A stretch of 35,555 nucleotides of DNA from Actinomycetota bacterium. GTDB taxonomy: Bacteria > Actinomycetota > Geothermincolia > Geothermincolales > RBG-13-55-18. Position numbers and translations under genes: made by a program. Location: contig JABLXL010000037.1 of assembly GCA_013178005.1 (NCBI GenBank), forward strand, positions 1 to 35,555. The letters are read 5' to 3'. A model generated the notes under the pieces. The model had not been told where the DNA came from. It was given only the letters and a program-made list of their open reading frames with translations, and made no database searches. This document shows positions 50 to 32,255 of the stretch, piece by piece; position 1 is the stretch's first letter; each line of letters opens with the position of its first letter.

Positions 50-126
50 GAAAACAGGTAATTTCCCTTGCTCACGATAGGGAATTCTATTTGCTGAAAA
101 CAGGGAATTTTACTTGACGAAAAACA
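50..126. repeat. 23-bp imperfect tandem repeats, probable end of an IS21-like element
   Basis: Three and a half contiguous 23-bp units lie at 50-72, 73-95, 96-118 and from 119 on, built on GAAAACAGGGAATTTTACTTG. The second unit is degenerate at its start. Known of the family: IS21-type elements carry several tandem terminal repeats that bind the transposase and end in TG...CA. Read on the minus strand, the right edge begins TGTTTTTCG at position 126, which fits such an end with the element body to the left of the window. The homology of the neighbouring ISL3 transposase stops at this point, so the inference is that the insertion truncated it. Confidence 0.55.
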
Positions 127-1121
127 GGGTGGGTGGCCCACCAGATCCACTGGTCCAGATAGCTCTCCGCCCAGGCGGGGTAGGTATAATCCCAGAAGGC
201 CCTGAACGCCTCCTTCAATAGATAAGCCCGGTTGATCTTGAGGTTCAGTTTCTCCAATTCAGAAAGCCTCGCGCGCTGGCCCCGGGTCAGGTTCTCGGGG
301 TTTTTCAAGAAGATGTAGCGTGTCTTCTTCAGCACCTCGGGGTCTCTGCCCTTGAGCTCCCGTGCCTCCTCCCTCCTCACCTCGTCCACCGCGCCCAAAA
401 GGTGCCTTACCAGGTGGAACTTGTCGAAGACCAAGGTGGCCCCCGGCACCTCCTCCTCCACCACGTCCAGGTAGGGGCGCCACATATCGCAGCAGATCAC
501 CTCGATCGCCTCTTTCTCCTCCTTGCTCAGGCAAGAGAAGAAGGCGCGCAGGGCCGCCTTGTCCCTGCCTTCTCCGCACCACAAAAGGCGCATGTGAGAA
601 AGGTCGTAGACCATGGTCATGTACTTGTGGCCCTTTCTCCTTGCGATCTCGTCTATGCCGATCACGGTGATCCCTCCTGTGTCGCGGTGGGCGAGCCCGA
701 AGGAAACCGCCTGGGCGACGGCCGACCTCACCGTGTTCCAGTGGCAGGAGAAGAGCCTGGCCACTTCCTCGAAAGGCAGGATCCTGGCGTAGGTGGCGAG
801 CAGGACGATGAGCGGCACCGATAGGGAACTCTTGCCCTGGGACCAGGGCATCTTCTCCACCACCACGCCGCATCTCTTACACCTTCCCCTGCGGGGGCGG
901 TAGGTGAGGGTCACCGGTATCCACCACAAAGGGACGTGCCTCCACGATCGTTCCCTTAAGGTGTCGTAGCCGGGCATCTTTCTGCCACAGGAAGAACAGA
1001 TGGGCCTGGATCCCTTTCTGGCCTCTAGCTGGGCCTTGATCTCCCTGTCATCCATGGTCACCTTCTTGACCTTGTGGCCCTTGAGTCCGAGCGTCCTGCG
1101 TAGTAGGCTTGAGATGTGCAT
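87..1121 (-). pseudogene. ISL3-family transposase, C-terminally truncated
   Basis: This encodes an ISL3-type DDE transposase. The N-terminal zinc-binding part has two CxxC pairs (CSSC about residue 41, CKRC about residue 80) followed by a helix-turn-helix region. The catalytic core shows the first Asp in the GIDEIARRKGHKY block and the second in CCDMWRPY. The protein runs in family register up to WWATHP, then reads about a dozen foreign residues encoded by the adjoining 23-bp repeats and stops. The C-terminal block carrying the catalytic Glu is missing, so the enzyme should be inactive. I chose the ATG at 1121 because GGGAGAG sits just upstream; an upstream ATG at 1160 would add 13 residues. 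No inverted repeat of the element was identified. Confidence 0.85.
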
Positions 1122-1235
1122 TTCTCTCCCTTCTTTTTGGCGTTCTTTTACAACAACCAAAAATTAGGGGGAGAATGCCTTTATTACAATGTTTGCTTGG
1201 GTTCAGCTACCCACAAATTCTTGCGGGGACCCAGA

Positions 1236-1571: not shown

Positions 1572-2600
1572 ATGCCTTTGTACAATTATACTCTAGCAAA
1601 TGGCGAGCGCCGCTACAGGGTCCAGATCCGTCGGCGCGGCCACCGGCACCAGAAAGATGGTTTCCGGTCCCGGGAGGCGGCCAAGGCGTACGAGCGCCGC
1701 TACCTGGACGCCCTGTACGCCCGCCTTGCCGGCACCGACCTGGCGGTGACCGTGCAGGAGCTCGCCGAGCACTGGCTCGAGCACATGAGGCCGCGGCTCA
1801 AGCCCTCGACCTGGAGGGATTACGAATCATCCCTTAGGCTGAGGATCCTCCCGGACCTCGGGCACCTGCAGATCCGCGAGGTCACGCCGTTGCTAGTCCT
1901 GGCCCTCAACGACAAGCTTGCCCGGGACCGCACGCCCAGGACCGTCAACAAGACCGTGGCGCCCCTCCGGGCCACGTTCCGCCAGGCCGTCGCCTGGGGG
2001 ATCCTCACCTATAACCCGACGGCCGACGTCCGCAGGGTGCCGGAGCGCCGGCGGGAGATCGACTGCCTCTCGGAGGAGGAGGTGGCACGGCTTCTGGAGG
2101 CCTCCGAGGGTAGGGACCGGACCCTGATCGCCGTCGCCCTGGGGACGGGCCTGCGCCAGGGCGAGATCCTGGCGCTCAGGTGGGGGGACATCGACTGGTT
2201 CCGGGACGTCATACATGTCCGCAGAACCTGGCTGAACGGAGAATACCACGATCCGAAGATGCACTTCTCCCGCCGGGACGTGGTAATGTCCTCCTGGTTG
2301 AGAGGGGAGCTCGCTGGTCATTTCGACTCGGAAGGTCGGCCGGGCCCGGACCGATTGGTATTTCCATCCCGGACCGACACGCCCCTGGCGCGAGCAAACG
2401 TCAATCGAAGGATCCTCAATCCGGCGCTCGACCGGGCGAAGCTCCGCAAAGTCTCCTTCCACAGCTCACGCCACACCTATGCCAGCGTTCTGCTCTCGAG
2501 GGGCGCCGACGTGCTTTTCGTGTCGCGATAACTCAGCCACTCAACCGTCAGGATCACCCTGGATCTATACGGCCATCTTATGCACGATCCCGGGACTTAA
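1572..2600 (+). pseudogene. Tyrosine recombinase (phage-type integrase) broken by one in-frame stop
   Basis: A GGAGG at 1560 precedes the ATG. The product has an Arm/SAM-like N-terminal core-binding domain (about residues 55-150) and a C-terminal catalytic domain with Arg in TGLRQGEILALRW and the HSSRH box. The frame hits TAA at 2529-2531. Past it, in the same frame, translation continues with LSHSTVRITLDLYGHLMHD and ends at 2600, which restores the conserved second His and the nucleophilic Tyr. A single nonsense change (CAA to TAA fits the family's RQLGH pattern) therefore inactivated an otherwise intact recombinase. The 319-residue product without Tyr cannot recombine DNA. It lies about 100 bp from a tRNA-Phe gene, a usual integration site, so it is likely the last piece of an integrated element. 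Confidence 0.9.
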
Positions 2601-2661
2601 AAAGACACTTTGGGCGTTTCGTTTACGGGGTATTTACGGGGCGAAAATCCGGCCGAAGAGG

Positions 2662-2685
2662 AAGGCCCCTCGGAAAAGGGGCCTT
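2662..2685 (-). terminator. Hairpin downstream of tRNA-Phe
   Basis: AAGGCCCCT and AGGGGCCTT form a 9-bp stem around a 6-nt loop, 15 nt past the encoded CCA of tRNA-Phe in its direction of transcription. It is followed by a pyrimidine-rich stretch (TCCTCTTC) rather than a pure T run. The same hairpin with its flanks occurs after tRNA-Lys. Confidence 0.65.
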
Positions 2686-2700
2686 GACCTGGTCTTTTGC

Positions 2701-2776
2701 TGGTGGCGAGAGAGGGATTTGAACCCCCGACGCCAGGATTTTCAGTCCTGCGCTCTACCAACTGAGCTATCTCGCC
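2701..2776 (-). tRNA. tRNA-Phe (GAA)
   Basis: A 76-nt cloverleaf with a GGCGAGA/TCTCGCC acceptor stem, anticodon loop CTGAAAA (anticodon GAA), a GGTTCAAATCC T-arm and an encoded CCA. It is the closest of three minus-strand tRNA genes to the broken integrase and a likely former attachment site. Confidence 0.97.
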
Positions 2777-2806
2777 GTATATCTCAACTCCCGAAGGAGT
2801 TACCGG

Positions 2807-2884
2807 TGGCGGAACCGACGGGATTTGAACCCGCGATCTCCGGCTTGACAGGCCGGCGTGTTAACCTGGCTACACCACGGCTCC
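2807..2884 (-). tRNA. tRNA-Asp (GTC)
   Basis: A 78-nt cloverleaf including CCA. The acceptor GGAGCCG pairs with CGGTTCC using one G-U pair. The anticodon stem GGCCT/AAGCC region holds loop CTGTCAA (anticodon GTC). It lies 30 nt upstream of tRNA-Phe in the direction of transcription, probably in one transcript. Confidence 0.96.
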
Positions 2885-3021
2885 TCGTAACGCGCGCCGC
2901 TCCCGGCTTCGCGCGCATATAATATTATAGTAACTTTCCCGCGCGGACAATCGCGCCTCTTGTTCCCGCCCCGAAGGCGCGGCGGGTCTATCCTCAATCC
3001 CCGCTGAACGGGTTTGAATTC

Positions 3022-3097
3022 TGGTGCCCCCAGCGGAATTCGAATCCGCGTCACCGCCTTGAAAGGGCGATATCCTAGGCCTCTAGACGATGGGGGC
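3022..3097 (-). tRNA. tRNA-Glu (TTC)
   Basis: A 76-nt cloverleaf including CCA. The acceptor GCCCCCA pairs with TGGGGGC, and the anticodon loop CTTTCAA gives anticodon TTC. It is first of the Glu-Asp-Phe series on the minus strand, separated from tRNA-Asp by about 137 nt. Confidence 0.96.
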
Positions 3098-13540: not shown

Positions 13541-15406
13541 ATGGGAGTCATGGCCGAGAAGAGCCTGTCGGGATTGTTGAAATCGCTGCCGACTTCCCTG
13601 CGCATGGAGGAGGCCAAGGGCTTGGGGCGCACCTTTAAATATCAGTGGGGAGGTGGACGCAATACCTGGGCGATCGTTTGGAAGATATTCTCCGGCGGGC
13701 AGGGACTGCTGAAGAACCTTCGCGACCTGGGAAAGGTGAAGGTGGGAAAGATCGTGCCCAACTGGTCCCTGGCCATGTGGGAAGTGTTCGGGGACCGCGA
13801 GGCCGCGGTCGACGGCGAGAGGCGTTATACCTACCGGGAGCTGAAGGACCGCGTGCTCAGGCTGGGCAACGCCCTGCAGGACTTGGGCGTACGGCCCAAG
13901 GACCGTGTCGCGGTGATGATCCACAACGGCGCCCCCTTCCTGGAGATACTCAACGCCACTAGTCTAATAGGTACCCCCATGCCCTTCGTGAACTGGCACC
14001 TCAAGGGCGAGGAGCTGCTCAAGACCATCAACCTCAGGAGTCCCAGGGTCTTCATCTTCGACGCCGATTTCCTGGAGGACGTGCAGAGCATCCGGGATGG
14101 ACTTGAGGGGACGGAACACTTGGTGATCATAGGAAGCGAGGGCTCGCCACCGGAGGGTATGCTCTCCTACGAGGACCTTATCGCGAGCCACCCCTCCACG
14201 CGGCCGGAGGTAAACTTCCTGGCCTCCCTCAATCCTTACACCGGAGGCACCACCGGCATCCCCAAGAGCTCCAACCTCTACGACAGCTTGAGCTACGCCC
14301 TCTCGGACCTTGCGGAGGCGCCGCGCGAGACCTTCGAGAACTTCCTCCCCTACTCCTTCCGGGCCTTCAGCTATTTCTACTGGTTCGGAGGGGACCGCAT
14401 CCGCGACCCGATCAGTGAAAACATAAGAACCCTCATCGTCACACCCGTCTACCACGCGGGCACCGCCGCCGGGTGGGCGCCCTGCTTCATGCTGGGGGCC
14501 ACGGGGGTGTTCATGCGCCGCTTCGATGCCGAGGAATGGCTGCGCCTGATAGAGAAGGAGCGCATCAACTGGGCCTTCGTCGCGCCCACCATATTACAAA
14601 GGGTCCTCGCCCTGCCAGACGGGGTGAAGCGCAAGTACGACCTCTCGTACATGCGCTCTCTCATCTGCGCAGCCGCTCCCTGCCCTCCCCAGGTCAAGCG
14701 CGACATCAACGCCCTTTTCCAGGAACAGGGAGCGCCGGGGCCCGTGTTCAGCGAGTACTACGGGAGCTCGGAGACCGCCATCATAACCATCCTCGTGCCC
14801 GAGGACTACACGGAGAAGCCCCAGCGCATCAACAGCGTGGGCAAGGCGCGCTGCGGGGACCTGGGAATATACATCGAGGAGGAGGGCCGTTGGGCGCGCC
14901 CCCACGAGATAGGAAAGGTCATGGGACGCACCGCCTCCACCCTCTCCCTGCGCTACCCGGGTTCCGAGGACCGGCTGCACGAGTCCTTGCGTATCATCGA
15001 CGGTCGCGAATGGTACGACGACGGCCTCCTGGGCTACCTGGACGAGGACGGCTTTCTCTACCTAACGGGCAGGCTCAAGGAGATGATCATCACCGGAGGG
15101 GTGAACATCTACCCCCTGGAAATAGAGGGGGTGCTGTTGCGCCACCCCGCCGTCTTCGACGCAGCGGTGGTGAGCATGCCCCATCCCGACCTGGGCGAGG
15201 TCCCCGTGGCCTGCGTGCAGCTGCACCGGGGAGCCGAGGTGAGCGAGGAGGAGATACTGTCCTTCTGTCGCGAACAGGGGCTTCACGGATACCTCCTGCC
15301 GGCGAAGGTGGAGATACTGGAGGAGCTGCCGCGCCACATAGACGGGAAGATCATCAAGCGGGAGCTGGAGAAACGCTACTGGAAGGACGTGGAAAGGAAG
15401 GGTTGA
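13541..15406 (+). CDS. AMP-dependent acyl-CoA synthetase/ligase
   Basis: The 621-residue ANL-superfamily enzyme activates a carboxylic acid to acyl-CoA through an acyl-AMP. The phosphate-binding loop is YTGGTTGIPK at about residue 233 (usually TSGTTG). YYGSSET marks the adenine-binding A5 motif, GYLDEDGFLYLTGR the A7-A8 hinge, KEMIITGGVNIYPLEIE the A8 region, and the catalytic A10 lysine lies in IDGKIIKREL near the C-terminus. An N-terminal extension of about 80 residues precedes the usual TYREL start of the core. The acyl specificity is not readable, though a thiolase 370 bp downstream suggests fatty or branched acyl-CoA metabolism. GGGAGGGGATCG precedes the ATG. Its last ~90 bp are duplicated downstream. 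Confidence 0.9.
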   Translation: MGVMAEKSLSGLLKSLPTSLRMEEAKGLGRTFKYQWGGGRNTWAIVWKIFSGGQGLLKNLRDLGKVKVGKIVPNWSLAMWEVFGDREAAVDGERRYTYRELKDRVLRLGNALQDLGVRPKDRVAVMIHNGAPFLEILNATSLIGTPMPFVNWHLKGEELLKTINLRSPRVFIFDADFLEDVQSIRDGLEGTEHLVIIGSEGSPPEGMLSYEDLIASHPSTRPEVNFLASLNPYTGGTTGIPKSSNLYDSLSYALSDLAEAPRETFENFLPYSFRAFSYFYWFGGDRIRDPISENIRTLIVTPVYHAGTAAGWAPCFMLGATGVFMRRFDAEEWLRLIEKERINWAFVAPTILQRVLALPDGVKRKYDLSYMRSLICAAAPCPPQVKRDINALFQEQGAPGPVFSEYYGSSETAIITILVPEDYTEKPQRINSVGKARCGDLGIYIEEEGRWARPHEIGKVMGRTASTLSLRYPGSEDRLHESLRIIDGREWYDDGLLGYLDEDGFLYLTGRLKEMIITGGVNIYPLEIEGVLLRHPAVFDAAVVSMPHPDLGEVPVACVQLHRGAEVSEEEILSFCREQGLHGYLLPAKVEILEELPRHIDGKIIKRELEKRYWKDVERKG

Positions 15407-15550
15407 GGCTGCGGGGGAGCGGCGAGGTTCATAACACTGGAGGAGCTGCCGCGCCACATAGACGGGAAGATCATCGTGCGGGAGCTGGAGAAACGCTACT
15501 GGAAGGACGTGGAAAGGAAGGGTTGAGGCTGCGGGGGAGCGGCGAGGCTC
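15316..15550. repeat. Tandem duplication of the acyl-CoA ligase 3' end
   Basis: Copy 1 is 15316-15430 and covers the last 91 bp of the ligase gene plus 24 bp after the stop. Copy 2 is 15436-15550, offset by exactly 120 bp. Only three differences are visible: AA to GT (Lys to Val in the A10 tail, leaving the GK lysine intact) and one T to C. Copy 2 has no start codon and should be untranslated. Confidence 0.95.
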
Positions 15551-17021: not shown

Positions 17022-17357
17022 TTAAAACTCGAAGTGGTGAAAAGTGCAGGAAAAGGTGGGCATATCGTCCCCTCCCCCCGAGGAGATGATGTATGACCCC
17101 GAGCGGTTTGCCGGACAGACCGGTATCTGCTGCAGGTAATCGGGATATAGGTCGGAAACCGAGGTGGGGTACGATTCGAAGGACGCGCCGTAGACGTTGG
17201 CGGCGGACTTCATCGTCCTGAGATTGGCCTGGCAGACCTTCTCCTCGCTGCTGGAGCGCGCGCTAATGAAAACGGGCACAGCTATGCCTACCAGGATGCC
17301 GACGATCAGGATGACGATCATCAGCTCCACCAGCGTAAAGGCATTTTCCCTATTCAT
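17022..17357 (-). CDS. Type IV pilin-like / pseudopilin protein
   Basis: The 111-residue protein has the prepilin signal NRENAFTLVELMIVILIVGILVGIAVPVF; cleavage would fall before Phe of FTLVE, with the conserved Glu at position +5. The usual Gly at -1 is Ala here, which prepilin peptidases tolerate. The segment after the hydrophobic helix (ANLRTMKSAANVYG and YPDYLQQIPVCPANRSGSY) follows the GspG-like pattern, with a Cys pair near the C-terminus. ATG 17357 gives the standard short leader, while an in-frame start 12 nt upstream is also possible. It is convergent with the thiolase and divergent from the trp promoter, with no assembly genes nearby. Confidence 0.85.
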   Translation of the reverse strand: MNRENAFTLVELMIVILIVGILVGIAVPVFISARSSSEEKVCQANLRTMKSAANVYGASFESYPTSVSDLYPDYLQQIPVCPANRSGSYIISSGGGDDMPTFSCTFHHFEF

Positions 17358-17430
17358 ATGCGTTTGCAAGCGGCAGAAAGCTTGCCCATCGAGTTATTTA
17401 TTCATATCGGCAACTGCGCCCCGGGAGTGA

Positions 17431-17464
17431 AGACCGTTCCCTCCCATTTGTACGGGAAGACCGT
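17431..17464. promoter_or_regulatory. Repeat just upstream of the trp promoter
   Basis: AGACCGT occurs at 17431-17437 and again at 17458-17464, with TTCCC and GGGAA facing each other between them. The position directly before the -35 box suggests a regulator site, but no consensus is recognised. Confidence 0.3.
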
Positions 17465-17467
17465 CTA

Positions 17468-17496
17468 TTGACAGGCGCCTTTTCTTGCCTTAAAAT
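17468..17496 (+). promoter_or_regulatory. trp operon promoter
   Basis: TTGACA (17468-17473), a 17-nt spacer and TAAAAT (17491-17496) form a near-perfect sigma-70-type promoter. The start site would be about 17503, so the leader ORF at 17507 begins only a few nucleotides into the transcript. Confidence 0.88.
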
Positions 17497-17506
17497 CCCA
17501 ACCACT

Positions 17507-17554
17507 ATGAAAGGATCGACGCGCAGTCTTCGATGGTGGTGGAGCCCCTCATAG
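17507..17554 (+). CDS. trpL: trp operon leader peptide
   Basis: The 15-codon ORF MKGSTRSLRWWWSPS has three consecutive Trp codons at 17534-17542 and a TAG stop. It starts about 4 nt after the predicted transcription start with no ribosome site, so it is probably translated leaderless. Its stop codon lies inside sequence that can pair with the downstream hairpin loop. The Trp triplet, the position in front of a terminator and the trpE gene beyond identify it as the sensor of charged tRNA-Trp in an attenuator. Confidence 0.9.
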   Translation: MKGSTRSLRWWWSPS

Positions 17555-17629
17555 AGAGGGCTCCGGTCACCGCGCGTAGGTTCCCACGAGAAAAGAAGGC
17601 CGTGAATCCTCTCTAAGGGTCGCGGCCTT
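17541..17629 (+). promoter_or_regulatory. trp attenuator: alternative RNA hairpins
   Basis: Stem 1 pairs GGAGCCC (17541-17547) with GGGCTCC (17558-17564). Stem 2 pairs AAGGCCGTGA (17596-17605) with TCGCGGCCTT (17620-17629). The second arm of stem 2 can instead pair with the first arm of the terminator (17647-17656; 10 pairs, two of them G-U). TAGAGAGG (17552-17559) is exactly complementary to CCTCTCTA (17608-17615) in the loop of stem 2. Proposed logic: a ribosome stalled on the Trp codons frees 17552-17559 to invade stem 2, which releases its second arm to block the terminator. A ribosome at the stop codon covers that segment, so the terminator forms. Confidence 0.75.
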
Positions 17630-17646
17630 GTTCTTTCCCACCCTCA

Positions 17647-17684
17647 CGAGGCCGTGTACCCGGGGTGCACGGCCTCGAATTTTT
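17647..17684 (+). terminator. Intrinsic terminator of the trp attenuator
   Basis: CGAGGCCGTG and CACGGCCTCG form a perfect 10-bp stem that extends inward by several pairs, followed by AATTTTT. It lies 6 nt before the trpE ribosome site (AAGGAGGT). Confidence 0.93.
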
Positions 17685-17704
17685 CGCAAGGAGGTCTTAA
17701 AGCG

Positions 17705-19258
17705 ATGGATGAAAATGGATCCCGGCGTGGCAAGGGAAGCGGCAGGGGCATCTACCGCCCCGGCGAGGAGGATTTCCTCGACCTGGCGCGCCGCCACAGG
17801 CTGGTGACGGTGTCCCGGGCGGTGAGCGCTGACACCGAGACGCCGGTAACGGCGTTCCTCAAGCTGGCCCGGGGAGATTACGCCTTCCTCCTGGAGAGCG
17901 CGGAGGGCGGGGAACGCTGGGGCCGTTATTCCTTCATCGGCTGCGACCCCCAGGCGGTGATCGGCTTCCGGGATGGCGTCCTCGACCACCTGCCCGGGGA
18001 GGTTCCGTACCCAAAGGACCTGAACCCGGTCTCCTATCTGTGCGAGCTCATGGAAAGCTTCGCCCCCGCATGTTGCGGAGAGGACCTCCCCTTTTACGGG
18101 GGCGCGGTGGGCTATCTCGCCTACGACCTCCTTCCCTACCTGGAGGACATAGAGCTCCACGCGCCAGGCGGGCTGGATATCCCCGCGATGATGTTCATGC
18201 TCACGCGAAGGTGCGCGGCCTTCGACCACCTCGCGGGGCGGTTGATCCTCATGTGCAACGTGATGATATCCGAAGGCATCCCGGATGGCGGACTGCGCGA
18301 GGAATACCGCCGCGCCATCTCGGACATCGAATCCATGGCGCGGGATCTGGGCGACGGGCTTCCCGGCGGCGGCACGGCGGACGTATATTTCCTCTCCGAG
18401 GAGGCCGACTTCCAGGGCGCAAGCTGCAACTTCTCCCGCGAAGAGTACGAGGCTGCGGTGGAGCGGGCGCATGAATATATCCACGCTGGAGATGCCTTCC
18501 AGGTGGTGCCTTCCCAGCGCTTCACCGTCCCCCTGCGCTGCCACCCCTTCTCCGTCTACCGCAGCCTGAGGTCGGAAAACCCCTCGCCCTACATGTTCTA
18601 CCTTCGCTTCCGCGACCTGCACCTCGTGGGCTCATCCCCCGAGCCCATGGTGCGCCGTCGCGGCAGCCGGGCGGTCATCCGTCCCATCGCGGGCACCAGG
18701 CCCCGGGGCGCCACGCCCGAGGAGGACCTCCGCCTGGAAGAGGAGCTGCTGCGCGACGAGAAGGAGCGGGCGGAGCACATCATGCTCGTGGACCTCGCCC
18801 GCAACGACCTGGGGAGGGTATGCGTCCCCGGTTCGGTGCGCGTGGAACGCATGATGGCGGTGGAGAGGTTCTCCCACGTCATGCACCTGGTGAGCGAGGT
18901 GAGCGGGCAGCTCCGCCCGGGTTGCGGCAACTTCGAGCTGCTGAGGTCCACCTTCCCAGCGGGCACGGTTTCCGGGGCCCCCAAGATACGCGCCTGCCAG
19001 ATCATCGACGAGCTGGAGAAGGAGCGGCGCGGTCCTTACGCGGGAGCGGTCGGGTACATCTCGTACGGCGGCGACATGGACACCTGCATCGCCATACGCA
19101 CCATCGTGGCCAAGGACGGCCTTGCCCACGTTCAGGCGGGGGGTGGGGTGGTGGCGGACTCCGTCCCCGCCAGGGAATACGAGGAGAGCCGCAATAAGGC
19201 CCGCGCGCTGCTTCGCGCCGTGCGCCTCGCCGAGGCGAGAGAGGGGGTGCGGGTATGA
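17705..19258 (+). CDS. trpE: Anthranilate synthase component I
   Basis: The 517-residue protein converts chorismate plus ammonia, supplied by TrpG, to anthranilate. LLES near residue 60 is part of the tryptophan feedback site and separates TrpE from PabB. The chorismate-binding core shows PIAGTRPRGATPEED, DLARNDLGRV, FSHVMHLVSEV, TFPAGTVSGAPKIRA and the final IAIRT and QAGGGVVADS blocks. The ATG at 17705 follows AAGGAGGTCTTAAAGCG and is preferred over an upstream in-frame start that lies inside the terminator. The gene overlaps trpG by ATGA. Confidence 0.97.
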   Translation: MDENGSRRGKGSGRGIYRPGEEDFLDLARRHRLVTVSRAVSADTETPVTAFLKLARGDYAFLLESAEGGERWGRYSFIGCDPQAVIGFRDGVLDHLPGEVPYPKDLNPVSYLCELMESFAPACCGEDLPFYGGAVGYLAYDLLPYLEDIELHAPGGLDIPAMMFMLTRRCAAFDHLAGRLILMCNVMISEGIPDGGLREEYRRAISDIESMARDLGDGLPGGGTADVYFLSEEADFQGASCNFSREEYEAAVERAHEYIHAGDAFQVVPSQRFTVPLRCHPFSVYRSLRSENPSPYMFYLRFRDLHLVGSSPEPMVRRRGSRAVIRPIAGTRPRGATPEEDLRLEEELLRDEKERAEHIMLVDLARNDLGRVCVPGSVRVERMMAVERFSHVMHLVSEVSGQLRPGCGNFELLRSTFPAGTVSGAPKIRACQIIDELEKERRGPYAGAVGYISYGGDMDTCIAIRTIVAKDGLAHVQAGGGVVADSVPAREYEESRNKARALLRAVRLAEAREGVRV

Positions 19259-19833
19259 CCAGGGTGCTCCTGGTGGACAACTACGATTCCTTCACCTACA
19301 ACCTCGCCCAGGCCCTGCAGGTGCTGGGGGCGGAGGTGATCACGGTACGCAACGACGCCCTGCCTGCCGGGGCGCTCTTATCCCTCTCCCCCACCCACCT
19401 GGTCATCTCCCCCGGACCGGGGACGCCCGCGGAATCCGGCGTCACCCTGGAATCGGTGCGTATCTTCGCGGGAAAGATACCCGTGCTGGGGGTATGCCTG
19501 GGCCACCAGGCCATAGGACAGTGTTTCGGCGCGCGCCTGGTGCGGGCCCCCAGGCCGGTTCACGGCAAGGTGTCGAGCATCGCGCACGACGGGGAAACCA
19601 TATTCCAGGGATTGGAAAACCCCTTCCAGGCCACGCGCTACCATTCGCTGACGCTGGTCGACGTGCGCCCGCCCCTCGAGGTGAGCGCCCGCTCGGAGGA
19701 CGGCCTGGTCATGGGGGTACGGTACCGCGGCCTCGGCGTCGAGGGGGTGCAGTTCCATCCCGAGTCCATTCTCACCGCGGAGGGAGAGAAACTCCTGGCC
19801 AATTTCATTTCCATGGAGGTGAACGGAAGATGA
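19255..19833 (+). CDS. trpG: Anthranilate synthase component II, glutamine amidotransferase
   Basis: The 192-residue class I glutamine amidotransferase releases ammonia for TrpE. Motifs are VDNYDSFTYNLAQ at the start, ISPGPGTP, the nucleophile elbow GVCLGHQAIGQ and the catalytic His-Glu in GVQFHPESI. The length is that of a stand-alone TrpG, not fused to TrpD. It overlaps both trpE and trpD by ATGA, so the three are translationally coupled. It could also serve p-aminobenzoate synthesis, as in some bacteria, but its place in the operon favours tryptophan. Confidence 0.97.
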   Translation: MTRVLLVDNYDSFTYNLAQALQVLGAEVITVRNDALPAGALLSLSPTHLVISPGPGTPAESGVTLESVRIFAGKIPVLGVCLGHQAIGQCFGARLVRAPRPVHGKVSSIAHDGETIFQGLENPFQATRYHSLTLVDVRPPLEVSARSEDGLVMGVRYRGLGVEGVQFHPESILTAEGEKLLANFISMEVNGR

Positions 19834-20867
19834 TCGGTGAAGCCATCGCCAAGGTGGCGGCGGGCGAGTGCCTGAGCCGCGAGGAGGCGCATGCCGCCAT
19901 GCTCCACCTCATGCGGGGAGAGGCGAGCGACGCCCAGATCGCCGCGCTCCTCACCGCCCTGCGCATGCGCGGCGAGACGGCCCAGGAGATCGCGGGCTTC
20001 GCTCGGGCCATGCGCGATTCCGCCACCACCATCAGCCCATCCGTAGCCCCGCTGGTGGATACCTGCGGCACCGGGGGGGACGGGCTCTCCACCTTCAACA
20101 TCTCCACCGCGGCGGCGCTGGTGGCGGCGGGGGCGGGGGTTTACGTGGCCAAGCACGGGAACCGCGGCGTCTCCTCCGCCTGCGGGAGCGCCGACGTGCT
20201 GGAGGCCCTGGGGGTGAACATCGAGATGGAGCCGGGAGACGTGGAGGAATGCATCGAAAAGGTGGGGATCGGCTTCCTGTTCGCTCCCCGCTTTCACCCC
20301 GCCATGCGCCACGTGATGCGCGCCCGCCGCGAGATGGGCATCCCCACCGCCTTCAACCTCCTCGGGCCGCTCGCCAATCCCGCGGGTGTGCGCTCGCAGG
20401 TCCTGGGAGTGGGGATGGCGGGGAAAGCCCCCCTTCTAGCGGAGGCGCTGGCGGAAATGGGAGTGGAGAGGGCCATGGTGGTGCGGGGAGAGGACGGCAT
20501 GGACGAGCTTTCCCTCACCTCCCCTTCCGCTATCTGGGAGGTTAAGGGAGGAGAGGTGAGCCGTTACGTCCTCGATCCCGGGGAGCTGGGGATGCGGCAC
20601 GCCACCCTGGCGGACCTGGCGGGGGGCACCGCCCTGGAGAACGCCCGCATCATCAGGGACGAGATCCTGGCCGGGGCGGCGGGGCCCCGGCGGGACGCCA
20701 CGGTGCTGAACGCGGCGGCGGCGCTGGCGGTCGCGGGCAAGGCCTCGGACCTGCGCGAGGGCGTGGAGATGGCGCGGCGGTCCATCGACTCGGGGGCGGC
20801 CCTCCGCGTGCTCGAGGAATGGGTGGAGTTCAGCGAGGAAAGGACGGGCGCCCATGCGGGAGCGTGA
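19830..20867 (+). CDS. trpD: Anthranilate phosphoribosyltransferase
   Basis: The 345-residue protein transfers phosphoribose from PRPP to anthranilate. Motifs are DTCGTGGDGLSTFNIST (diphosphate site), KHGNRGVSSACGSADVLEALG, and FAPRFHPAMRHVMRARREMGIPTAFNLLGPLANP, all as in the family; MVVRGEDGMDE follows. The start is fixed by ATGA overlap with trpG. The last 99 bp of the gene (coding from MARRSID to the stop) are repeated exactly just downstream. Confidence 0.97.
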   Translation: MIGEAIAKVAAGECLSREEAHAAMLHLMRGEASDAQIAALLTALRMRGETAQEIAGFARAMRDSATTISPSVAPLVDTCGTGGDGLSTFNISTAAALVAAGAGVYVAKHGNRGVSSACGSADVLEALGVNIEMEPGDVEECIEKVGIGFLFAPRFHPAMRHVMRARREMGIPTAFNLLGPLANPAGVRSQVLGVGMAGKAPLLAEALAEMGVERAMVVRGEDGMDELSLTSPSAIWEVKGGEVSRYVLDPGELGMRHATLADLAGGTALENARIIRDEILAGAAGPRRDATVLNAAAALAVAGKASDLREGVEMARRSIDSGAALRVLEEWVEFSEERTGAHAGA

Positions 20868-20978
20868 GGGCGAGGATATGGCGCGGCGGTCCATCGACTC
20901 GGGGGCGGCCCTCCGCGTGCTCGAGGAATGGGTGGAGTTCAGCGAGGAAAGGACGGGCGCCCATGCGGGAGCGTGAGG
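20769..20978. repeat. Exact tandem duplication of the trpD 3' end
   Basis: 20769-20869 and 20878-20978 are identical over 101 bp, separated by 8 bp. Copy 1 is the end of trpD with its stop. Copy 2 begins with the in-frame ATG of MARRS and could encode a 32-residue peptide, but it has no clear ribosome site. Identity implies a recent event or an assembly error. Confidence 0.97.
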
Positions 20979-21213
20979 ATATCCGGAATCGCAGGCGGCG
21001 GGCTTCACGGCACGCGATGCCGGACTGCTTGAGCCGTGCAGGCGGTTCCCTCCTGGGGACGCAACCAGAGGACGGTCAGCGGGGTTCGTTTCCCGCCGAG
21101 GAGACGGGGCCAGGCCGCACCCCTTGCGGCTCTCCACGCCTCCACTCGCACATGCGGCGGCAAGAGCCCGGGCGGCAGCCTGCCCCCGGTCCCGAGCCGG
21201 AAAGGAGAGGGTG
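20979..21213. other. Untranslated stretch inside the trp operon
   Basis: About 235 bp between the trpD duplication and trpC, the largest break in an otherwise tightly coupled operon. It has no coding frame with the local codon bias, no clear promoter and no T-tailed hairpin. It ends in AAAGGAGAGG for trpC. Confidence 0.45.
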
Positions 21214-22050
21214 ATGTTCCTGGACCAGGTAGCCGCGCTCACCAGGGAGCGCGTGGAACGCGCCATGAGGGAGTTCCCCCCGTACCTGTTGCGGGAGGCA
21301 TGCCGGAAAACCGCGGACCCACCTTCATTTGCCGCCGCGCTGAGGGGACAAAGGGGCGACGGCGTGGGGGTCATAGCGGAGATAAAGCGATCCTCTCCGT
21401 CCAGGGGACCCATAAGGCCGGAGCTGGTGGTGGAAGAACTGGTCGTCGCCTACGAGAGAGGCGGAGCCTGCGCCCTTTCGGTGCTTACCGAACCCGCCTT
21501 TTTCTCGGGGAGCATGGAGGACCTGCGGCAGGCGGCGCGCGCGACTCGCTTGCCGGTGATGCGCAAGGATTTCATCCTGCATCCCTACCAACTACTGGAA
21601 GCGCGCGCGGCGGGGGCCAGCGCCGTGCTCCTCCTCGTGGCCCTCCTGGGGGAAGGGGGGCTCGCCTTCATGCTGGGCGAGGCCAGGCGCGCGGGGCTGG
21701 AGGCGCTGGTGGAGGTGCACGACGAGGAGGAGGTCGAGATCGCTTTACGCGCGGGCGCGGACGTCCTGGGGATAAATAACCGCGACCTGCGCACCCTTCA
21801 CGTGGACCTGGACACCACGCGCAGGCTGGCGCGCATAGTGCCCGGCGAGATGGTTCTGGTAAGCGAGAGCGGCTACTCGAGGGCGGAGGACCTGGCGGGG
21901 CTGAAGGCGCTGGGAGTGGACGCGGTGCTGGTGGGCGGACACCTGTCGGGAAGTGACGACCCCGAGGCAGCGCTGCGGGAGCTCGTGCGCCACGCGCGTC
22001 CGGAGCAGGCAGCAGGCGCTTGCCGCGCCCGGGAAAGCGGGAAAGGATGA
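21214..22050 (+). CDS. trpC: Indole-3-glycerol-phosphate synthase
   Basis: The 278-residue TIM-barrel enzyme closes the indole ring from CdRP. Glu56 and Lys58 sit in VIAEIKRSSPSRG, followed by LSVLTEPAFF, MRKDFILHPYQL, LGINNRDLRTL and the phosphate-binding LVSESGYS. All catalytic positions appear conserved. The ATG at 21214 follows AAAGGAGAGGGTG; longer in-frame starts lack the family sequence. A tail of about 20 residues (ARPEQAAGACRARESG) exceeds the usual end. Confidence 0.96.
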   Translation: MFLDQVAALTRERVERAMREFPPYLLREACRKTADPPSFAAALRGQRGDGVGVIAEIKRSSPSRGPIRPELVVEELVVAYERGGACALSVLTEPAFFSGSMEDLRQAARATRLPVMRKDFILHPYQLLEARAAGASAVLLLVALLGEGGLAFMLGEARRAGLEALVEVHDEEEVEIALRAGADVLGINNRDLRTLHVDLDTTRRLARIVPGEMVLVSESGYSRAEDLAGLKALGVDAVLVGGHLSGSDDPEAALRELVRHARPEQAAGACRARESGKG

Positions 22051-22162
22051 TCCGCGTGGCTTACGTCGAACATCCCGTGCCTTTTCCGCGGGTTGATAGG
22101 AAGGACCGGACGATCTCGGGTCGTATGGAAAAACGGCGAGAGAGCGACGGGAGGGATCGCGC

Positions 22163-22969
22163 ATGAGTTCGGGGCTGATAAAGGCCTGTGGCATGACCCG
22201 CGTCGAGGACGCCCTGGCGGCGGTGGAGGCGGGTTTCGACGCCGTGGGGCTGGTCTTCGCCGAGAGCCCTCGCCGCGTAAACCCGCGCACGGCCCGCGAG
22301 ATCTGCTCGCTCCTGCCCTCCTCGGTCCTCAGGGTGGGGGTCTTCCTGGGACAGACGCAAGCGGAGATCCGGGGGCTCATGGAGTACTGCGGGCTCGACC
22401 TTGCCCAGTTGCATGAGGCGGGAGGCACCGGGCTCGCGGAGGCATTCGGCGGACGGGCGCTGGTGGCGATCCGCCCGCGCCTCCCGAAAGATCTGGACGG
22501 CCTGGACGGGTACCGCGGAGCCTTCGCGTTGCTCATCGACGCCTGGCACCCTGAGAAGGCGGGAGGCACCGGCATCACCTGCGACTGGACCCTCGCCGCC
22601 CGAGCCGCGCGCGCGTCGAGGGTCATCCTCGCCGGGGGGTTGAGTCCGGACAACGTCGCCGAGGCCATAAACCGCGTGCGCCCCTTCGGGGTGGACGTCT
22701 CCAGCGGGGTGGAAGCGGCGCCGGGCATAAAGGACCCCGCGCTCCTGAGGCGGTTCGCGCGCGCCGCCAAGGCAGCCTTTGAGAGCCTTCGAGGGGACGC
22801 GGGGATAAGCTTCAAGGAACAAGCGGAAACGGAAGGCGCAAGCTGCGTCGGGGCGACGCCGATGAACGGATACACGGTAGCGCATGGAAAGCGTGCCGAG
22901 GCAGCGGGCGGAAACCATCCCCTCGCGGGGGCGGACGGGGACACAAAGGAAATGGTGTCGGAGAGATGA
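22163..22969 (+). CDS. trpF: Phosphoribosylanthranilate isomerase with C-terminal extension
   Basis: The 268-residue protein isomerises PRA to CdRP. Cys9 in IKACGMTR is the general base, and the general acid is the Asp of GVDVSSGVE. Other marks are [27 protein letters not shown] and [11 protein letters not shown]. The barrel ends near residue 215, where most TrpF proteins stop. Here about 55 more residues follow, of low complexity (Gly, Ala, Glu, Lys) and without a recognised domain, up to the ATGA overlap with trpB. The tail may simply keep translational coupling. Confidence 0.94.
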
Positions 22970-24198
22970 AGATGCGGGAAAAGAAAGCTATACCTGTGGA
23001 AGACAAGGGCATGGGCGCGCCTCCGTCGGACGGCCGCTTCGGGGATTTCGGGGGGAGGTTTGTGCCGGAGACGCTGGTGGCGCCGCTGGCGGAGCTCGAG
23101 GAAGCGTACGCTGAGGCCGCGGGCGACCCGGCTTTCAGGCGGGAGCTGGAGCACTACCTGGGCCATTATGCCGGAAGGCCCACCCCCCTCTACGAGGCGC
23201 GGCGCCTGTCGGCGGAGCTGGGAGGAGCTACCATTTTCCTAAAGCGCGAGGACCTGTGCCATACCGGCTCCCACAAGATTAACAACACCCTGGGACAGTG
23301 CCTGCTCGCCCGCCGCATGGGAAAGCGCAGGGTCATCGCGGAGACGGGGGCGGGCCAGCACGGTGTGGCCACCGCCACCGCCGCCGCCCTCATGGGCCTG
23401 GAGTGCGAGGTCTTCATGGGCGAGACGGACATGGCGCGACAGGAGCTCAACGTCTTCCGCATGGAGCTGCTGGGCGCCGGGGTGGTGCCGGTGCGCACGG
23501 GCTCGCGCACCCTCAAGGACGCGGTCAACGAGGCATTGCGCGACTGGGTGGCGACCTCCGACCACACCCACTATTGCATGGGGTCGGTGGTGGGCCCGCA
23601 CCCCTTCCCCACCATGGTGCGCGACTTCCAGTCGGTGATCGGTCGCGAGGCGCGCGCCCAGCACCTGGAGCTGACCGGCCGCCTGCCCGACTGCCTCGTC
23701 GCCTGCGTGGGAGGGGGCAGCAACTCCATGGGGCTCTTCCACCCCTTCCTGGCGGACGGCGTGCGCATGGTGGGGGTGGAGGCGGGAGGCACCGGCCCCG
23801 AGCCCGGGAGGCACGGCAGCACCCTCTGCCTCGGCTCTCCCGGGGTACTGCACGGGGCGCGCTCCTACCTGCTGCAGGACGACGACGGCCAGATCCTGGA
23901 AACACATTCCATCTCGGCGGGGCTGGACTATCCCGGCGTGGGGCCGGAGCATTCGTTCCTCAAGGAGAGCGGGAGGGCGGAATACGTGAACGTGGGGGAC
24001 AGTGAAGCGCTGCTCGCCGTGGAGCTCCTGTGCCGCAGCGAGGGCATCCTCCCCGCCCTGGAGAGCGCCCACGCCGTGGCCTGCGCGGCCAAGATCGCGG
24101 CGACGATGCCCCGGGGTTCGTCGATGGTGGTCTGCCTCTCCGGACGCGGCGACAAGGACGTGGGGACGCTCATGGCGGCGAGGAGGACGGCGAGATGA
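22966..24198 (+). CDS. trpB: Tryptophan synthase beta chain
   Basis: The 410-residue PLP enzyme condenses indole with serine. Lys104 in HTGSHKINN forms the Schiff base. [12 protein letters not shown], the phosphate loop [26 protein letters not shown] and the C-terminal CLSGRGDKD are as in TrpB1. The first ~20 residues are a variable extension before the family start at [16 protein letters not shown], so a later start is possible, but the ATGA overlap with trpF supports 22966. It forms a complex with TrpA, encoded next with a second ATGA overlap. Confidence 0.97.
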
Positions 24199-24992
24199 AC
24201 CGCGTCGACAGGGCCTTCCATGGCCAAGACGGGGCAGGCACCCTGCTTATTGGGTACGCCACGGCGGGTTTTCCCGACCCCGAGACATCGGCGCGCGTCG
24301 CCGCCGCCCTGCTCGAGCACTGCGACCTCCTTGAGCTCGGCCTGCCCTTCTCCGACCCCGTGCTCGACGGACCGGTGATCCAGGAATCCTCCCGCCGCGC
24401 CCTGGAGGCGGGCTTCCGGATAAGCGAGGTCTTCGATCTGGCGGCCGACCTGCGCGTGAAAACGGAGAAACCCCTCCTGCTCATGACCTACTACAACCCC
24501 GTGCACCGCGTGGGAGAGAGCGCGTTCGCGAGGATGGCCGCCACGGCCGGCTTCGACGGCCTGCTCGTGCCCGACCTGCCCCTGGAGGAATCCGGTTCCC
24601 TGCGGGCGGAAGCCGCTTCCCACGGTATCGCCGCGGTGCTCTTCGCTTCCATGACCACGCCGGACGAGCGCCTCGGCGCCATCGCGGAGGCGACGCGAGG
24701 CTTCCTCTACTGCTTCGCAGTAAAGGGAACCACGGGACTGCGGGCCAGCCTGGCCGGGGACCTCGCGCCCTTCATGGCCAGGGTCAGGTCCCGCTGCCGC
24801 GTCCCCCTTGCCCTCGGCCTGGGCATCTCCAACCCCGGACAGTGCCGGGAGGCGGGAAAGCTCGCGGACGCGGTGGTGGTGGGAAGCGCCCTGGTGAAAG
24901 CCAGCATGGACGCCCTGGACGGCGGCGGGGATCCCGCGGAAGCCGCGGGGGAACTGGCCGCATCCCTGCGCGCCTCCCTGAGGAATCGATAA
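24195..24992 (+). CDS. trpA: Tryptophan synthase alpha chain
   Basis: The 265-residue TIM-barrel protein cleaves indole-3-glycerol phosphate to indole, channelled to TrpB. Glu47 ([11 protein letters not shown]) and Asp58 ([14 protein letters not shown]) correspond to the two catalytic acids. [17 protein letters not shown] and LGLGISNP are kept in family positions. Some normally strict blocks vary: GYATAGFPD for PYLTAGDP, and CFAVKGTTG for the usual VSVTGVTG. It closes the trp operon; no T-tailed hairpin follows before the next gene. Confidence 0.95.
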
Positions 24993-26960: not shown

Positions 26961-26998
26961 CCCGAGGAGAATGCCCGGACTGTCCTTGCCCGCCCGAA

Positions 26999-27234
26999 AG
27001 CCTGCATCGCGTAAGCGATTGCGCCGAGCGGAGCGAGGCGCAACGGTGCCGGCGCGACGCGTCATGAAACGATGCAAGGCCTGGCACGCATACGGCCGGA
27101 TTGATCGCGGGCATTCCCACCCCCGTCCGACAGCCTGCATCGCGTAAGCGATTGCGCCGAGCGGGGCGAGGCGCAACGGTGCCGGCGCGACGCGTCATGA
27201 AACGATGCAAGGCCTGGCACGCATACGCCCGGAT
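26999..27234. repeat. Tandem 103-bp structured repeat, two copies
   Basis: 26999-27101 and 27132-27234 match with two differences, separated by 30 bp. Each contains GCCTGCATCG facing CGATGCAAGGC as an outer stem, TTGCGCC facing GGCGCAA as an inner stem, and further GC-rich complementarity. This is a REP/BIME-like element or an RNA structure. It lies directly after the DUF606 gene. Confidence 0.9.
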
Positions 27235-30715: not shown

Positions 30716-30807
30716 TCCAACTCCTCCTCGACGATCGCCATAGCCTGAGCCATACCCTTCCGCGTTCTCTCGGCCTCCGCGGAAGGCGTGGCCATCGACT
30801 CGGTAGT

Positions 30808-31067
30808 TTATCGGGTATGACCATGTTTTCCTACAGCAATCCAGGCTGTATCCATTGCCCGGAGGGTTTAAAGAAAATACTGCATGGTGCCGTCGGGGAT
30901 GACCGCTGGAAACGGGTCAAGGGGCTCTTTCCCATCACCCTTTGCAGCCTTAGCCATTGACCTTGATTTTACCGGGTACGTGCATGTTTTCCTGCAGCAA
31001 TCCAGGCTGTATCCATTGTCCGGAGGGTTCAAAGAAAATACTGCATGGTGCCGTCGGGGATGACCGC
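30808..31067. repeat. Diverged tandem copy of the larA 3' end
   Basis: 30808-30906 (outside the gene) matches 30969-31067 with roughly eight differences over 99 bp. The second copy covers the last 39 bp of the larA-like gene (coding VIPDGTMQYFL and stop) plus 60 bp beyond. In the outer copy the stop reads TAA instead of TGA, and the codons before it are unchanged. Confidence 0.93.
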
Positions 31068-32255
31068 CACGGAGGCCTCGCCCGGGAACTCCTCTTCCAG
31101 CAACGCGAGGGTCTCCTCCCAGGCGCGGGCCACCGCCACGCATTCCGCGGGGGCGAAGAGGTCGCACATGGTCTTGTCGGGATAGCGCGAGCAGACGATG
31201 ATCTTAAGCCCCTCCGGTGGCGGGCCCATCCTCATGTAGTACTCCCCGCCGTATTCCTTCCCGAAACTGCGGATTAGGTAATGGCAGACCTGCCCTTCCG
31301 GGCTGTTGACCAGCAACACGATGACCCCCCGGGAGAAATTCGCGCTCATCATGGACATGAGCATGCAGATGGCCATCTCGCTGCACTTGGCGTAGGCGTT
31401 GGTCACCACGATGTCCTTGCCCGGAGCCGGCCTGGTGCCGTAATGCTCCCTGGCCGCCTCCACCCCGGCACGGTACTCCTCCAAGTGATCCCCCACAAAG
31501 AGGTCGGTTATCTCTCCGCGGGCGTTGATGAGGGCGTCCACCTTCACCGCCAGACCGGACATCCTCGTCACCTCCGCGATCTCCGCGTACATGACGTTGT
31601 TCTCCGTCTTGCCCAGCCCCATGGTCTCAGGTCCCCTTAAGGCCACGTCGCGGTGAAAGGCCTTGATGGTCCGCACCCCGCTTATGCCGGGAAGCACGAT
31701 CTTCCCCCCACCGCCGAAACCCACGTGCACGTGGGGGGTTATGCAGCCGACGCCGATACGCAGGTCGCAGTACATGAACTCGCGGTTGATGTAAACGGGC
31801 ACGCCGCTGGGACTTTCTCCCAGATAATCACAGTTCTCGTAGGGGTTGTGATTGTAGACCGGGAACCTCTCCACCACCTCGTCGCCGAGTTTTTTGCGGA
31901 AGTCGATGTTGTTCATGGCCCCGTGCATCCCCAGGGCGGGTATGAAGCGCACGTTGGAGTCGGGGATCCCCGCTTCCCTCAAGGCCTCGAGGATGAAGGG
32001 GAGCACCACCTTGACCGGGGTGGGGCGGGTCATGTCGTCGAAAACGATGGCCACCTCTTTCGCGCTTCCCGCCAGCTCCCGCAGGTCGGGAACGCCGATG
32101 GGGTTTTCGAAGGCCCGGGCCATGCCCTCCGCGTTCAGTGCCGGCTTCCCGAATCCCGGCGGCTCCAGCACCTCCACCTCCCAGCGGTCGGGGAAAAATA
32201 TCTCGGCCGGCTCGTTGCCGTGCCACAACATACCGGGCACTTTAACCGTCTTCAA
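31029..32255 (-). CDS. LarA-like protein (DUF2088), nickel-pincer racemase family
   Basis: The 408-residue protein resembles lactate racemase LarA and its relatives. The N-terminal domain has VFDDMTRPTP (family: SDxTRPxP). The lysine site that binds the pyridinium-dithiocarboxylic nickel cofactor in LarA sits in CITPHVHVGFGGGGKIVLPGIS; its His and Lys are present. The general-base loop of LarA, GTHRP, reads GMHGA here. The family includes racemases and epimerases of several 2-hydroxy acids, so lactate is not assured. No larB, larC or larE is in the window. The 3' end is duplicated downstream. Confidence 0.8.
   Translation of the reverse strand: MKTVKVPGMLWHGNEPAEIFFPDRWEVEVLEPPGFGKPALNAEGMARAFENPIGVPDLRELAGSAKEVAIVFDDMTRPTPVKVVLPFILEALREAGIPDSNVRFIPALGMHGAMNNIDFRKKLGDEVVERFPVYNHNPYENCDYLGESPSGVPVYINREFMYCDLRIGVGCITPHVHVGFGGGGKIVLPGISGVRTIKAFHRDVALRGPETMGLGKTENNVMYAEIAEVTRMSGLAVKVDALINARGEITDLFVGDHLEEYRAGVEAAREHYGTRPAPGKDIVVTNAYAKCSEMAICMLMSMMSANFSRGVIVLLVNSPEGQVCHYLIRSFGKEYGGEYYMRMGPPPEGLKIIVCSRYPDKTMCDLFAPAECVAVARAWEETLALLEEEFPGEASVAVIPDGTMQYFL

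Follow-up and report, generated by a model that had tools for sequence, protein, structure and literature searches.

The question raised by the region upstream of trpE in the window, i.e. the whole 35,555-nt stretch of DNA analysed here, is how a short reading frame rich in Trp codons could govern a terminator lying well downstream of its own stop codon. A promoter, a 15-codon ORF with three Trp codons, hairpins and a T-tailed terminator had been placed there by the original prediction and read as a trp attenuator: all these elements are real and correctly located (Table 1), and the identity is borne out by their anatomy. In all likelihood, transcription of the entire trp operon is attenuated here by way of a ribosome that translates a leaderless leader peptide, the signal being passed on through a relay of two steps.

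The trpEGDCFBA operon is complete downstream of the leader, with trpE, G, D, C, F, B and A recognized by Pfam in this order, while the pilin-like gene on the other side points the opposite way; an intergenic start is therefore expected for the trp transcript. The source organism groups with Ca. Solincola (Actinomycetota), its closest match in named records being Ca. Solincola daggyaiensis (TrpE identity 84%). Its class, Geothermincolia, comprises 31 genomes: 25 of them carry this trpE and, spread over six families, form the set used for leader comparison. In every one, a leader peptide with WW or WWW near its stop codon is present. In the window, an intrinsic terminator lies between ORF and trpE, and computation yields a mutually exclusive antiterminator, dependent on the position of the ribosome.

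Table 1. Features of the trp leader and of its surroundings (window coordinates)
Feature	Position	Strand	Details
Pilin-like gene	17022-17369	-	divergent, upstream of the trp leader; Pfam/ORF
Sigma-70-type promoter	17468-17496	+	-35 TTGACA 17468-17473, 17-nt spacer, -10 TAAAAT 17491-17496
Leader peptide ORF, predicted leaderless	17507-17554	+	MKGSTRSLRWWWSPS*; 15 codons, ATG to TAG; Trp codons 17534-17542; stop 17552-17554
P0 outer helix, 5' strand	17519-17524	+	ACGCGC; folding, shuffle test
Segment A	17541-17547	+	GGAGCCC; hairpin 1 5' arm, overlaps third Trp codon
Segment B	17552-17564	+	stop codon and hairpin 1 3' arm; UAGAGAGG pairs with C
P0 outer helix, 3' strand	17572-17577	+	GCGCGU; folding, shuffle test
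Hairpin 2	17596-17629	+	5' arm AAGGCCGUGA 17596-17605
Segment C	17608-17615	+	CCUCUCUA; lies in the upper part or loop of hairpin 2, complement of B
Segment D	17617-17628	+	GGGUCGCGGCCU; hairpin 2 3' side, pairs in hairpin 2 or with E
Intrinsic terminator	17647-17684	+	hairpin E:F 17647-17677, AAUUUUU tract 17678-17684 (U5)
Segment E	17649-17661	+	AGGCCGUGUACCC; terminator 5' side, pairs with D or with F
Segment F	17663-17677	+	pairs with E in the terminator
trpE	17705-19258	+	Shine-Dalgarno AAGGAGG 17688-17694; first gene of trpEGDCFBA
trpG, trpD, trpC, trpF, trpB, trpA	19255-24992	+	Pfam; remainder of the regulated operon

The leader as a whole is much more stable than its shuffled versions (z = -6.07), and two sets of pairings compete within it. 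In one, A pairs with the GGGCUCC part of B (17558-17564) to form hairpin 1, with a probability of 0.97 when no ribosome is present, D is held within hairpin 2 and E pairs with F in the terminator. In the other, the first eight bases of B match C exactly (UAGAGAGG, 17552-17559, with CCUCUCUA, 17608-17615; 8 bp), and D pairs with E over 12 bp with one bulge. When tryptophan is abundant, or by default, B would be hidden by hairpin 1 or by a terminating ribosome: hairpin 2 would then form and retain D, the E:F terminator would follow, and RNA polymerase would stop before trpE. When tryptophan is scarce, a ribosome stalled on the UGG codons would cover A and free B, which would pair with C inside hairpin 2 and open it; D, once released, would pair with E, blocking the terminator and allowing transcription of the operon.

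The B:C match had been taken originally for a strand-invasion design departing from the 1:2/2:3/3:4 logic of simple attenuators. The pairing is real, but it does not replace the classical scheme, being the first of two linked alternative pairings; the second link, D:E, which joins the 3' side of hairpin 2 to the 5' side of the terminator, is a classical antiterminator. Besides D:E, a further element now added to the picture is the outer helix P0, conserved and long-range, which in 17 of the 25 leaders outscores 97% of shuffles or more. It pairs early leader codons with the stretch just after hairpin 1; the sister families have a UCAGGC/GCCUGA version of it. P0 and hairpin 1 together suggest, as we infer, a pause-type structure holding RNA polymerase until a ribosome loads on the leaderless end.

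Dependence on ribosome position was evaluated by masking, codon by codon, the RNA that the ribosome covers together with everything 5' of it, the leading edge being placed 15 nt beyond the first P-site base. The pairing flips between a ribosome at the Trp codons and one at Pro14 or the stop. In transcripts that end at 17661-17663, with Trp1, Trp2 or Trp3 in the A site, B:C has a probability of 0.98 and D:E of 0.98-0.99, hairpin 2 being reduced to 0.00; a stall at Ser13 gives intermediate values, 0.71-0.77. When the A site is occupied by Pro14 or the stop codon, hairpin 2 reaches 0.94, while both B:C and D:E fall to 0: a ribosome with the stop codon in its A site covers B, because B begins at that codon. 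When the same calculation was run on all leaders, the same flip was found in 22 of the 25 species and, in part, in two more (L015 and L011); the L025 leader showed none. These values describe equilibrium folding, not kinetics. In the same equilibrium terms E:F wins at any ribosome position once F has been made, and the switch must therefore operate while F has yet to emerge. RNA that is not being translated favours D:E for a short stretch (0.68-0.76 at 17661-17663), which makes the default without translation less clean than the stop-codon state.

Conservation of the two alternative pairings was measured on the 25 leaders, as a covariation search in the trp leaders of relatives had been suggested at the outset. 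The 7-nt blocks used for covariation were placed by complementarity, a choice which favours structure and inflates raw percentages, so that swap controls are a fairer measure than the raw values. Over 14 distinct sequences, 98.0% of B:C cells are paired, as compared to 75.3% in shuffles; both sides have changed in 6 of the 7 pairs, with 22 double-change cells against 6.0 in shuffles (none of 500 as high), and the signal collapses when the partner is slid by one column. Both features whose absence from relatives would have told against the original prediction, the Trp codons and this compensatory pairing, are kept. For D:E, the joint MAFFT alignment of the two blocks slipped between clades, and cells were counted by script: 97.0% are paired, versus 59.2% with partners swapped and 89.5% with partners swapped only inside each of the two clades (0 of 2000 in both controls). 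E:F and the lower stem of hairpin 2 are paired in 99.4% and 92.3% of cells, respectively; the hairpin arms were set by hand before scoring, as the automatic finder frequently picked D:E, the antiterminator, in place of hairpins 2 and 3. For the sister families the pairing of D with E (98.6%) exceeds that of D with its hairpin 2 partner (88.6%), and the same preference is seen individually in L018, L022, L025 and L028; D:E, then, does not seem to be explained simply by the resemblance of the two hairpins.

Of the other readings of these pairings, the one that survives best, improbable as we hold it to be, is a pseudoknot, in which B:C would form with hairpin 2 intact: hairpin 2 plus B would be a stable block, and antitermination would be reached by another route. 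C does sit within the 14-nt top of hairpin 2, with 2 nt before and 4 nt after it, and the folding program models no pseudoknots, so that B:C on an intact hairpin 2 receives no score. An 8-bp B:C helix, however, would have to be bridged by only 4 nt on its 3' side, a tight fit, and part of C is already engaged in the upper stem. Moreover, B:C reaches 11 bp in one group of relatives (g4), and in L010 it extends into the upper stem of hairpin 2, while the covarying D:E needs hairpin 2 to be open.

An ordinary four-segment attenuator is less probable still. Only D:E and E:F would matter, a couple which by itself does resemble a classical antiterminator/terminator pair; B:C would be a by-product of GA-rich sequence and hairpin 2 a spacer or a pause hairpin. 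The compensatory changes found in B:C across the class speak against a by-product, and without B:C nothing upstream of D would lie under the ribosome, because the distance from the first base of the stop codon to the beginning of hairpin 2 is 44 nt: a stall could not then be communicated to the terminator.

The leader peptide is predicted to be leaderless from promoter geometry. The promoter matches the consensus at 11 of 12 positions and is the sole promoter-like site in 17370-17720 (0.0 expected in shuffles); it is common to all 25 loci, with a TTGAC-type -35, a spacer of 16-18 nt and a -10 of the TANNNT type. The leader ATG sits 10 nt past the -10 in the window and 6-10 nt past it in the 25 loci of the six families. 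Placing the start 5-7 nt past the -10, we infer that transcription begins at about A17504, 3 nt before the ATG, and no Shine-Dalgarno sequence could then precede the leader peptide. Transcription starts mapped in Streptomyces lividans lie on average 6.3 nt past the -10 (PMC8079986); by this spacing the ATG should be at, or a few bases from, the 5' end in every locus. The peptide is thus very probably leaderless, as originally proposed, and leaderless translation, given the closeness of the ATG to the -10 in all 25 loci, is probably ancestral in the class. The original qualification of this arrangement as unusual does not hold, leaderless trp leader peptides being already known in S. lividans (TrpL1, PMC8079986) and Sinorhizobium meliloti (peTrpL, PMC7298713). 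In the window's own genome, a number of long ORFs, some of them regulator-like, likewise follow such a promoter-ATG arrangement, which fits a wider use of leaderless mRNAs. Elsewhere in this genome (locus L131, contig C34) a consensus promoter is followed, a few nt on, by a 21-codon ORF and then by a T-box-like sequence.

Least probable of all is a leadered transcript, starting upstream and translating the peptide from a longer 5' region: the start site is placed here by its distance from the -10, and an in-frame TTG codon does exist upstream within the window, but this TTG falls inside the promoter itself, the upstream gene is divergent, a second promoter-like site is missing from 17370-17720 and the geometry from promoter to ATG is identical in kind throughout the six families. 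T-box or riboswitch control was rejected, since Rfam leader, T-box and riboswitch families gave nothing above the gathering threshold at the leader, the only matches in the window being tRNAs.

Six segments are also found in the enteric his attenuator, where A:B, C:D and E:F form when the amino acid is plentiful, B:C and D:E when it is scarce. The same mutual exclusion was computed for the leader of the window. The his leader peptide, however, contains His codons and is led by a Shine-Dalgarno sequence, whereas here Trp codons precede trp genes; unlike in his, C is located in the loop and upper stem of the middle hairpin, which in sister genomes also has a U-tract. The window's leader works like the his device, but is not a his attenuator.

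Within the phylum, Corynebacterium and Streptomyces have trp attenuators of the classical type (Seliverstov et al. 2005, PMC1262725). Compared by description, they share with the window the regulated gene, 2-3 tandem Trp codons and a GC-rich terminator with a U-tract; what is described is a classical antiterminator/terminator with a gGCC-rGCy-GGCC triple. Neither a relay hairpin nor tandem terminators appear in the available descriptions of these attenuators (PMC1262725, PMC8079986). S. lividans TrpL1 (MFAHSTRNWWWTAHPAAH) is, like the peptide predicted here, transcribed leaderless (PMC8079986). The S. meliloti trpL-trpE(G) leader similarly encodes a leaderless Trp peptide, of 14 amino acids, from an RNA whose 5' end starts at the ATG, but it belongs to another phylum, and its small RNA and peptide act in trans (PMC7298713). 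The ilvBNC leader of C. glutamicum is another actinobacterial leader-peptide attenuator with anti-antiterminator, antiterminator and terminator, in that case tested by mutation; it consists of a single chain of three overlapping hairpins, without a second relay step (PMC11857589).

A literature search ranked no paper naming this class together with attenuation. What is new is the combination, in a deep actinobacterial class, of leaderless translation with a six-segment relay, along with natural compensatory variants and a tandem-terminator version: leader-peptide attenuation with leaderless translation is thereby extended to a deep-branching, uncultured class, and the compensatory changes among the 25 natural variants open the relay to direct tests by mutation.

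The tandem-terminator version is found in ten sister genomes (families f4-f6), where 5-8 U come directly after hairpin 2, while most copies of hairpin 3 have a U-rich tract of their own. These leaders appear to contain two tandem terminators, and a single stall may disarm both. In the window's lineage hairpin 2 has no clean U-tract. A natural single-terminator version is seen in L009 (Ca. Solincola sediminis), where hairpin 2 has a U-tract and hairpin 3 is absent, while L014 has U-tracts after both hairpins. The TrpE tree makes L009 basal within the window's family and puts L014 in an adjacent family; this placement fits an ancestral terminator at hairpin 2, lost once or more often. We tentatively propose, as a possibility somewhat short of an even chance, a domino attenuator: a stall in the sister families would disarm terminator 1 through B:C and next terminator 2, through the pairing of the freed D with E, and the window's lineage would be derived from this state by loss of the first U-tract, terminator 1 becoming a pure relay hairpin. 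By their example, the relatives with tandem terminators suggest that a six-segment relay of the his type could arise step by step from an attenuator with a single terminator.

Outside the class, 19 sampled genomes of the phylum gave no leader with neighbouring Trp codons upstream of trpE. The leader element looks class-specific in this sample, though trp leaders are known from Streptomyces and Corynebacterium. One of the 19 (L124) may encode a leader peptide with W-S-W (MIRVPTTWSWSGGSRSPEPARV*) upstream of trpE.

Elsewhere in the window, the stretch 1572-3097 holds an integrase-like ORF next to three clustered tRNA genes of the minus strand; a transposase-like ORF (87-1160, minus strand) is nearby, and the site looks like one of mobile-element insertion. 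Three pairs of direct repeats were also seen: a 120-nt unit present twice in tandem (15300-15539, copies 93% identical) about the 3' end of the acyl-CoA ligase-like ORF 13541-15406, two 113-nt copies, 96% identical and spaced 133 nt, apparently intergenic (26989-27234), and two 100-nt copies, 93% identical and spaced 161 nt (30807-31067), the second of which overlaps the 3' end of a minus-strand ORF (31029-32255).
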